Source of the DNA: Aureimonas phyllosphaerae
GTDB lineage: Bacteria; Pseudomonadota; Alphaproteobacteria; Rhizobiales; Rhizobiaceae
Direction: 5' to 3'
DNA: 64,000 nucleotides
Assembly (NCBI RefSeq): GCF_900113065.1
Contig: NZ_FOOA01000009.1
Location: forward strand, 62,001-126,000
Position 1 is the first letter of the stretch. The number at the start of each line of letters is the position of its first letter. This document shows positions 22,356-25,389 of this stretch, piece after piece. The notes below the pieces were generated by a model. That model searched no databases, was not told the DNA's origin, and worked only from the letters and a program-made list of their open reading frames with translations. The position numbers and the translations under genes were made by a program.

Positions 22356-22431
<76 letters not shown>

Positions 22432-23928: not shown

Positions 23929-24228
23929 ATGTCACGCGCTTGCGAACTGACCGGCAAGGCCGTCCAGACCGGCAACAACGTCAGCCACGCCAACAACAAG
24001 ACCCGTCGCCGGTTCCTGCCGAACCTGTGCCAGGTGACGCTGATCTCCGACGCCCTCGGCCAGCGCTTCCGCCTGCGCGTGTCGGCCCATGCGCTGCGCT
24101 CGGTCGAGCACCGCGGCGGCCTCGACGCGTTCCTCGCCAAGGCCGCCGAGCACGACCTGTCGCAGAAGGCCCGTCTCCTGAAGCGCCAGATCGCCAAGAA
24201 GACCGCGACGACGGCCGAAGCCGCCTGA
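23929..24228 (+). CDS. rpmB: 50S ribosomal protein L28
   Basis: This is a 99-residue basic ribosomal protein. It begins [28 protein letters not shown], with the L28 core [34 protein letters not shown]. As in other alphaproteobacteria it lacks a zinc-binding Cys set and has a Lys/Ala-rich tail. AAAGGTGATCCC precedes the ATG and provides the ribosome site. Confidence 0.98.
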
Positions 24229-24236
24229 GCTAGGGT

Positions 24237-24641
24237 TTGTCTCGTTTTTCGAGTCTGATGGGGAGCGCTGTCATCTTGGCAGCGCTCTTTTTCTTGCCGG
24301 CCTGTGCGTCGCTGCCCAGCGAGTTCGTCCGTGCCGACCGACCGGGCGACCTCTGGGAAGCTGACTATGGCGATTGCCGCGGAAAAGTGGAGGAGGGCGT
24401 CTACGTCTCTCCCGTCCTCAATCCGTCGGGAAGCCTCGGCGGGGCTGCGGCTGCAGGGACAGCTCGCGGCGTCGCGCGCTCGATCGAGAAGTATCAGCTG
24501 ACCGCCCAATGCATGCGTGACCGCGGCTACATCGCGACCAACGTGTCGTCCGAGGAGCGCAAGATCCTGCGGGGTCCCGCCGGGCCTGAACGAGACAAAC
24601 TGGTCGTAGAGATCGCCGCGCGCCAGACACAGGCGCGCTGA
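24237..24641 (+). CDS. Small lipoprotein, unknown function
   Basis: This is a protein of up to 134 residues with a lipoprotein signal (AVILAALFFLPAC, lipobox LPAC). The mature part has two more cysteines (YGDCRGK and AQCMRDRGY) and the QCMRDRGY(I/V) pattern seen in many short alphaproteobacterial lipoproteins. An Ala/Gly-rich stretch lies in the middle. The start is uncertain: TTG 24237 gives the longer form, ATG 24258 a form beginning MGSAVIL that still has a complete signal. It follows rpmB by eight bases. Confidence 0.65.
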   Translation: MSRFSSLMGSAVILAALFFLPACASLPSEFVRADRPGDLWEADYGDCRGKVEEGVYVSPVLNPSGSLGGAAAAGTARGVARSIEKYQLTAQCMRDRGYIATNVSSEERKILRGPAGPERDKLVVEIAARQTQAR

Positions 24642-24656
24642 CACCGACAACCCGAC

Positions 24657-24687
24657 GCTGGTGCCATACCCCAGCCTAAAAAAATGG
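24657..24687 (+). ncRNA. Candidate preQ1-I riboswitch
   Basis: The leader folds as an H-type pseudoknot. P1 is GCTGG (24657-24661) with CCAGC (24671-24675). The 9-base loop TGCCATACC carries CCA (24664-24666), which can pair with TGG (24685-24687) after an A-rich linker CTAAAAAAA. This is the size, order and A-rich character of preQ1-I aptamers, including a C just before the 3' P1 strand. It abuts the start of a queuosine-precursor transporter gene, the expected target. It was assigned by eye, without a covariance search. Confidence 0.6.
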
Positions 24688-25389
24688 ATGTCCGCCGTGA
24701 CCCTGTCCCGCCGCACCGTGCTGCCGGTGATCGCCATGACGATCATCGTCCTCGCCTCCAACATCGCCGTCCAGTTTCCCGTCCAGGGAACCCTCGGCCC
24801 CCTGTCGCTGGCCGACCTCCTGACCTGGGGCGCCTTCGTCTATCCCTTCGCCTTCATCGTCACCGACGTGAACAACCGCCTGTTCGGGCCGGCGGTGGCG
24901 CGGCGCGTCGTGTATCTCGGCTTTGCGGCGGCCGTTGCGAGCTCGATCGTGTTCCCGCCGATCCTCCATCGCCTCGGCCTGACGCCCTTCGAGACGGAAG
25001 CCGGTCGCCTGCTGCGCATCGCGCTCGCCAGCGGGTTCGCGTTCCTGTTCGCGCAGCTTCTCGACATCCTCGTCTTCAACCGGCTGCGCCGCCTGTCCTG
25101 GTGGAAGGCGCCGCTCGCGAGCGGCATTCTCGGCACGATCCTCGACACCCTCGTGTTCTTCTCGCTCGCCTTCGCGCCGGCCTTTCTCATCCTCGGGCCG
25201 AACGAGCCCTTCGCGCTGGAATCGGCCCCGCTCTTCGGGCTGCTCGCCGTCGAGGCGCCGCGCTGGGTCTCGTGGGCGCTCGGCGATTTCGGCGTGAAGC
25301 TGATCATCGCCGTGTTCGGCCTCGTGCCCTACCGCGTCGCGGTCAACGCCTTCCTGCCCTATCGCGACGCGCGGGTGGCGGCGGCCTGA
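24688..25389 (+). CDS. Queuosine precursor transporter, YhhQ/VUT family
   Basis: This is a 233-residue inner-membrane protein with about six transmembrane segments, starting near TVLPVIAMTIIVLASNIAVQ and VYPFAFIVTDVNNRLFG. The latter loop (F-x-x-T-D-x-x-N) is the signature of the YhhQ/COG1738 family that imports preQ0, preQ1 or queuine for tRNA queuosine. ATG 24688 directly follows the riboswitch P2 strand; GTG 24697 is an alternative start, for which the GGA in that strand would be the ribosome site and could be hidden by ligand binding. Confidence 0.9.
   Translation: MSAVTLSRRTVLPVIAMTIIVLASNIAVQFPVQGTLGPLSLADLLTWGAFVYPFAFIVTDVNNRLFGPAVARRVVYLGFAAAVASSIVFPPILHRLGLTPFETEAGRLLRIALASGFAFLFAQLLDILVFNRLRRLSWWKAPLASGILGTILDTLVFFSLAFAPAFLILGPNEPFALESAPLFGLLAVEAPRWVSWALGDFGVKLIIAVFGLVPYRVAVNAFLPYRDARVAAA

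Follow-up and report, generated by a model that had tools for sequence, protein, structure and literature searches.

A preQ1-I-like pseudoknot at the start of the queuosine-precursor transporter gene yhhQ in Aureimonas phyllosphaerae and its relatives

The leader of the queuosine-precursor transporter gene yhhQ in A. phyllosphaerae bears a well-supported preQ1-I-like pseudoknot, located at positions 24657-24687 (+ strand) of the 64,000-nt stretch of DNA analysed here (the window). We consider it very probable that this element is a cis-acting translational OFF riboswitch with a preQ1-I fold, kin of the type III riboswitch of Escherichia coli yhhQ, with a rewritten expression platform.

The element and its gene

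As RNA the leader reads GCUGG-UGCCAUACC-CCAGC-CU-AAAAAAA-UGG, which in DNA letters corresponds to GCTGG, the loop TGCCATACC, CCAGC, CT, a run of seven A (24678-24684) and TGG (24685-24687). The 5' strand of P1 (24657..24661, + strand), read from the sequence and by the architecture descriptor given below, and its 3' strand (24671..24675, +) form a helix of 5 bp, and enclose a loop of positions 6-14 (24662..24670, +) with U6 at 24662, G7 at 24663 and C14 at 24670. L3 (24676..24683, +) starts with the linker CU and continues through the A run as far as A27 at 24683. The 5' strand of P2, C8 C9 A10 U11, lies inside the loop (24664-24667, +), and its 3' strand, A28 U29 G30 G31, is found at 24684..24687 (+), as supported by the relation between bases 8 and 31 described below. 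All the parts that the earlier note had listed are present, namely a P1 of 5 bp, a 9-nt loop whose last base is C, an A-rich run and a pseudoknot strand, and the pairing of CCA with TGG that it had claimed extends to CCAU (24664-24667) with AUGG (24684-24687).

A descriptor composed after the motif was known, with a P1 of at least 4 bp topped by G-C, a loop U...C of 8-11 nt, an AAAA tail and three P2 pairs, matched only once on the two strands of the 64-kb window taken together, at the element itself, and gave three matches in 40 first-order Markov windows of equal length. The minimum free energy of the element is unremarkable (z -0.19).

The gene that adjoins the element (24697..25389, + strand, with a probable GTG start at 24697) is indeed of the YhhQ family, as the earlier note had said: this queuosine precursor transporter (COG1738) scores 97.8 bits with TIGR00697 (cut-off 50.95) and 96.2 bits with PF02592 (cut-off 27.2). 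The upstream neighbour is rpmB, encoding ribosomal protein L28 (23926..24228, +; PF00830, 91.2 bits), and between rpmB and the element lies a small ORF (24237..24641, +) that is lipoprotein-like when its sequence is inspected by eye, matches nothing in Pfam or NCBIfam at E<=0.001, and stops 15 nt 5' of P1. A sigma-70-like promoter was sought in 24100-24720 and none was seen, which counts against the riboswitch explanation. In many relatives (L197-L256, by eye) a GC-rich hairpin with a T run is seen between rpmB and yhhQ, and in some of them it lies only about 25-30 nt 5' of P1, leaving scant space for a promoter of yhhQ's own.

Conservation and base pairing in relatives

To follow the element in relatives we used a covariance model, R1, built from 21 leaders (20 alphaproteobacterial ones and that of E. 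coli); R1, and the model R2 discussed below, were built from members of the same families that were later searched. In the GTDB family of the window's genome (here f1, which we take to be Rhizobiaceae), R1 matched 187 of 199 genomes at E<=1 and 178 at E<1e-3, and YhhQ is present in 188 of the 199. When 199 genomes sampled across the order were searched, the R1 matches of f1 scored 33.3-53.2 bits, all six matches above 33 bits belonging to this family, and the best match outside it reached 25.5 bits; the second-best match in the window's own genome is 20.2 bits. YhhQ begins at the motif in 35 of 35 strong loci retrieved with R1 (L167-L196 and L257-L261, 30 from the family search and 5 from the order-wide sample; tblastn), and in 0 of 15 weak ones (L262-L276).

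Starting from the gene, the element is found at the gene start in 100 of 101 yhhQ loci (L009-L109, some genomes being represented twice), the exception being L051. No motif was recognisable by eye in eight f1 YhhQ leaders (L051/L224, L198, L219, L222, L223, L297, L298 and L300), two others are decayed (L299, L301), and in G280 (contig C12; L303, L305) there is no motif near YhhQ, although R1 matches that genome at 2.3e-5. Genomes of 1.1-1.6 Mb in f1 have kept YhhQ, with the element either decayed (L299, L301) or unrecognisable (L297, L298); L299 retains CUGGUUCCAUUAC, after which P1 and the A run are broken, and L301 retains fragments.

The 166 distinct leaders compared in the following derive from 215 regex-matching loci among 276, which were chosen via YhhQ or R1 and in which Mesorhizobium and Aureimonas are over-represented. 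The Rhizobial regex imposes CTGG/CCAG and a run of A6-9 followed by TG, and leaves the loop, base 31, the linker and the frame free, so that the presence of CUGG/CCAG in 166/166 leaders is fixed by the pattern. The same holds for a minimum of six A, within which the run is 7 long in 161 leaders, 8 in 3 and 6 in 2. The loops, whose sequence was not imposed, fall into only 14 types, all of which start with U, contain CAU and end in C, and the loop CAU faces AUG in all 166 leaders (the loop side being free in the regex). The conservation of the element in related leaders that the earlier note had expected is borne out in the 100 of 101 yhhQ loci. The outer P1 position forms G-C in the 24 leaders that have C after CCAG, and among the other 142 there are one C-G and six U-G. 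P1 does not vary inside f1, and its support therefore rests on the comparison between clades.

Three subtypes, UC, GG and GC, were named by loop bases 7-8, the window being GC, and they differ in base 31, the base that follows AUG. Base 31 is C in 45/45 GG leaders and G in 27/27 GC leaders, and in the 94 UC leaders it is A in 68, C in 18, U in 8 and G in none. In the 30 distinct rows with G7, 240 of 240 cells are paired, and the covariation score was matched by 0 of 500 shuffles (alignment A4). Pair 8-31 is unpaired in 44/44 distinct UC rows, as it is in the E. coli type III aptamer, whose C8 is engaged in a triple. Base 31 thus tracks base 8 in the G7 subtypes, on few independent changes: a quick tree of 61 YhhQ proteins, with 26 of its 58 inner branches unsupported, requires 6 changes of subtype. 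Counting supported branches only, there are 2 independent pairs of leaders that differ in base 8, and a comparison of GC with all other leaders over the full tree gives 4; base 31 agrees in both pairs that were tested, while GG and C31 change in the same direction in 1.2 of 2 pairs on average; no p-value is given for this tree test because the independent pairs are too few. Base 13 is A in 92/92 leaders with U7 and a 9-nt loop, and A, C or U with G7, a freedom that would fit a different pocket ceiling in the G7 subtypes. The absence of G31 from the 94 UC leaders might hint that C8-G31 is disfavoured alongside U7.

Beyond f1, 34 of 51 non-alphaproteobacterial leaders (that of E. coli and 50 others, probably gammaproteobacterial) match a type III descriptor, with a UUCCCU-type loop and with AAGG in 32 and AACG in 2, and several of the 17 unmatched ones show the motif by eye. 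A third group of leaders comes from another alphaproteobacterial family, f40, which is presumably Rhodobacteraceae, and reads CCAAG-UCUCCGCAAC-CUUG-UC-AAAACGGA..AUG (by eye). These leaders (L112, L114 and L359-L377) are type III-like, with P1 CAAG/CUUG (also CAUG/CAUG and CGAG/CUUG), P2 CCG/CGG and an AUG a few nt downstream. The f40 descriptor matched 19 of 21 f40 leaders, 0 of 27 other alphaproteobacterial leaders and 1 of 2400 shuffles. The model R2 scored 31.9-44.7 bits in four f40 genomes and at most 26.5 bits in other families (385 genomes), and this search speaks for specificity only, as the four strong matches all come from the training set.

Between the clades, P2 differs by whole pairs, being CCU/AGG in gamma, CAU/AUG in f1 and CCG/CGG in f40, and in the P1 of f40 100% of cells are paired, with two pairs showing changes on both sides. 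In 50 distinct cores from the three clades (218 rows: 32 of 51 gamma leaders, 20 of 21 from f40 and the 166 of f1) each inner pair of P1 and P2 is present in 48-50, part of this pairing being imposed by the patterns, and for variable columns the shuffles gave at most 34-42. The gamma regexes fix how the loop starts and require P1 to have 4 bp or more, and the f40 regex imposes CCG, CGG and the top G-C, leaving the rest of P1 free.

Relation to known preQ1 riboswitches

The Rfam preQ1-I model RF00522 matched nothing in the window, and a scan of the element and its surroundings with a limit of E<=10 likewise returned nothing, short of the gathering threshold. The earlier note had proposed this check and would have taken a missing hit as refutation; the hit is missing, yet this is evidence neither way, since RF00522 equally fails to match the E. 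coli yhhQ leader, a proven type III preQ1-I riboswitch. There was likewise no match on eight other loci scanned, of gamma, Rhizobial and f40 kinds (including L309 and L320), four of them from f40. Across 41 relatives RF00522 matched 14 at E<=10, none above the cut-off, and in the controls of this survey it matched 10 of 14 genomes, one of them above the cut-off.

Features of sequence and gene context that characterise preQ1-I riboswitches of the class I fold are found here: a short P1, of 5 bp in the window, that is topped by G-C, a C before the P1 3' strand (166/166 leaders), an H-type pseudoknot, an A-rich L3 directly 5' of the P2 strand, and a queuosine uptake gene downstream (TIGR00697; 35/35 strong loci). 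The closest known RNA is the E. coli yhhQ type III aptamer, AUUGGG-UUCCCUCAC-CCCAAU-GGUUAAUC-AAAAAGG, which has been crystallised and tested in vivo (PMC10622847; the structure is PDB 8fza, cited in PMC11625349). In its crystal numbering P2 consists of U11-A28, C10-G29 and C9-G30, U6, C14 and A27 are at preQ1, and C14 is the specificity base for preQ1 (PMC10622847); the roles that we give to U6, C14 and A27 are taken from there. The f1 leaders share with it the yhhQ gene, the H-type pseudoknot, the 9-nt loop frame, the G-C atop P1, U6, C14 and A27, the A-rich L3, and P2 at 9-11/28-30. The loop frame is the same in the Mesorhizobium leader, CUGG-UUCCAUYAC-CCAG-GAU-AAAAAAAUG, which in loop and P2 differs from E. 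coli by the change of C10-G29 to A10-U29 and by a free position 12; outside these parts its linker is shorter, its A run is longer and its P1 is a different one. With this one exchanged pair the buried AAGG becomes AAUG, a start codon.

Other differences separate f1 from E. coli type III. Its P2 strand is AAUG(N) instead of AAGG, so that in most leaders the start codon and not the Shine-Dalgarno sequence lies in P2, the G7 subtypes have a fourth pair, 8-31, P1 is 4-5 bp, and the linker is 3 nt in most leaders compared with 8. Three sites of the window are at odds with the type III consensus: G stands for U7, C for A13 and AAUG for AAGG. In the E. coli structure, U7 and A13 are both engaged in contacts (PMC10622847). 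Put in terms of the consensus in PMC11625349, the UU beside the 5' strand of P1 is UG in the window and is found in 94 of 166 leaders (the UC subtype); AC before the P1 3' strand is CC in the window and is found in 92/92 UC leaders with 9-nt loops; and the AAGG Shine-Dalgarno in P2 is replaced by AAUG in the window and in 166/166 leaders (AUG being imposed). On these grounds the window element is classed as a variant and not as a member of type III. PMC10622847 places type III almost exclusively in gamma-proteobacteria, and PMC11625349 places it in Pseudomonadota.

The close resemblance to the Thermoanaerobacter tengcongensis aptamer that the earlier note had perceived did not hold up. That type II RNA shares the fold, the A-rich tail and the C before the P1 3' strand, whereas its P2 and ceiling are based on G8, A10 and G11 and its loop is of intermediate size (PMC10622847), and a type II identity was rejected since the loop bases do not correspond. 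The type I riboswitch of Carnobacterium antarcticus shares the fold and the alpha-site pocket, and differs by binding two stacked preQ1 molecules, by a longer loop and by UC before the P1 3' strand (PMC11625349, PMC10622847). With regard to the platform, SAM-II and other direct-occlusion pseudoknots also combine aptamer and ribosome-binding site in a single pseudoknot, with another ligand and fold and with the ribosome-binding site described as lying in the pseudoknot (PMC10907184). In the Vibrio vulnificus add adenine riboswitch both the ribosome-binding site and the AUG are occluded in the OFF state, but by a separate sequester hairpin instead of the aptamer's own pseudoknot, and the ligand turns expression ON (PMC10907184).

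Occlusion of a start codon by a riboswitch is thus already known from add (PMC10907184). In the open-licence PMC literature we found no description of the element, nor of any preQ1-I riboswitch whose P2 contains the start codon, an earlier alphaproteobacterial mention in McCown 2014 being possible; passages of PMC13273304, PMC11570991 and PMC3766115 describe neither, and the words 'start codon' do not occur in PMC10622847 or PMC11625349.

Translation initiation and proposed control

The AUG in P2 is in frame as the yhhQ start in 142 of the 166 distinct leaders, and these are the leaders with G after CCAG (142/142, 135 by script and 7 by eye). In them AGG stands 8 nt before the AUG, overlapping the end of P1 at the P1/L3 border, and judging by its position it may act as the Shine-Dalgarno sequence in most f1 leaders. 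The 24 leaders with C after CCAG, which comprise 21 from Aureimonas and L052, L057 and L146, gain a G-C pair in P1, and only 6 of them have an AUG that is in frame with no stop. The remaining 18 keep both the AUG and base 31 even though this AUG cannot start YhhQ, which indicates that the AUG is kept as RNA.

In Aureimonas AGG is lost and AUGGA is present in 21/21 loci (L009-L029), its AUG being mostly out of frame or stopped, and a GTG or ATG follows 7-12 nt after GGA in all 21 (by eye). The probable Shine-Dalgarno core of the window is this GGA (24686..24688, + strand), 8 nt before GTG. Although the window also has an in-frame ATG at 24688, within GGATG and with the GTG 9 nt downstream of it, we rejected this ATG as the yhhQ start, as relatives align by eye on an [A/G]TG start that is not there; the same comparison makes GTG 24697-24699 the probable start, for which AUGGA would most likely be the Shine-Dalgarno sequence. 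The earlier note had the P2 strand touching the start codon, at the ATG of GGATG, which is probably wrong. Its further suggestion that the start codon is hidden fits most of the leaders collected (142/166), and probably not the window, where AUGGA is the likely Shine-Dalgarno sequence.

For the ligand, its affinity, the Shine-Dalgarno roles and the direction of control we infer the following course. PreQ1 would stack on the top G-C of P1, be read by C14, U6 and A27, and fix P2, in which loop bases 8-11 pair with bases 28-31; the closed P2 would bury the initiation region, and synthesis of the importer would stop. In most f1 leaders the buried strand would be the start codon AUG itself, with the Shine-Dalgarno AGG overlapping the 3' end of P1 and the A-rich L3 serving as spacer, so that aptamer and ribosome-binding site would be one object. 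In Aureimonas, where AGG is gone and a fifth P1 pair gained, the AUGGA in P2 would act as the Shine-Dalgarno sequence of a start located 7-12 nt later. On balance, and with moderate confidence, we favour the fuller reading that in f1 the entire initiation region is the aptamer (Shine-Dalgarno in the P1 3' end, L3 as spacer, start codon as P2 strand and, with G7, codon 2 contributing its first base as the final partner in P2), that the G7 pocket ceiling is unlike those of known preQ1-I types and in effect makes a fourth type, and that Aureimonas reverted to Shine-Dalgarno trapping by a moved start codon.

The riboswitch reading draws on the gene, the order of the parts and the 9-nt loop frame, which are the same as in the proven E. 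coli type III leader. What the ligand would be is bound up with the physiology of the host. A QueF match of 110.9 bits lies elsewhere in the window's genome (G000 contig C35:144538-144774), and QueC has no match there, so that the organism probably salvages imported preQ0 or preQ1. The switch would then provide feedback control on precursor uptake; that yhhQ is controlled by various preQ1 riboswitch classes in different bacteria is as such known (PMC5372724). The need to import preQ0 or a later intermediate, the import of both preQ0 and preQ1 by E. coli YhhQ (PMC10622847), and the replacement of U7 by G7 and of A13 by C or U raise an alternative that overlaps with our preferred explanation and whose likelihood is not exclusive of it, namely a real aptamer that best binds preQ0 or another 7-deazaguanine. 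We hold this to be rather unlikely, because C14, U6 and the A run are kept, positions 6-9, 11, 13 and 14 of the UC subtype are those of E. coli type III (position 12 being free), and the latter binds preQ0 about 138-fold less tightly than preQ1 (PMC10622847).

Recognition by a protein or an sRNA instead of a metabolite, with the pseudoknot read by a translational repressor, would suit the very high primary-sequence conservation in f1 and the invariant P1. Retention of U6, C14 and the A run, which are the readers of preQ1 in E. coli type III, and the precedent of E. coli, where the same leader architecture at yhhQ has been proven to be a preQ1 aptamer (PMC10622847), make such a site improbable. 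The arms of P1 also form a dyad in DNA, CTGG-N9-CCAG, on which a transcription factor could act, but they change pairwise between clades, and the rule relating bases 8 and 31, the A run at fixed distance and the kept AUG all lie outside the dyad and fit RNA pairing, so that an operator is most improbable. An A-rich translation enhancer beside an incidental hairpin is hardly credible either: A7 before AUG could, on general knowledge, serve binding of ribosomal protein S1, but the loop hardly varies, with 14 types among 166 leaders, and AUG and base 31 are conserved in the 18 leaders whose AUG cannot start YhhQ.

If the riboswitch reading is true, the type III-like subtype extends to a large alphaproteobacterial family that Rfam's preQ1-I model does not see, and across f1 the imported precursor would shut off its own importer through a start signal folded into the sensor. 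The leaders would also offer a natural series, from the Shine-Dalgarno sequence in P2 to the start codon in P2 and to the Shine-Dalgarno sequence in P2 again, in which the expression platform is rewritten through paired changes with the pocket mostly unchanged. This bears on a challenge raised in PMC11625349, that of translational riboswitches with a platform other than the usual Shine-Dalgarno sequence.

A link between preQ1 synthesis and the presence of the element was considered and is unsupported, QueC being strong in 5 of 18 genomes chosen with the element (among them G280, whose yhhQ later showed no element) and in 2 of 10 chosen without it. QueC is above cut-off in 12 of these 28 genomes, in 7 of them strongly (104-226 bits) and in 5 at 25-27 bits over short stretches. 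Elsewhere in the window, a tRNA gene lies on the minus strand at 22359-22431 (RF00005, 62.9 bits).
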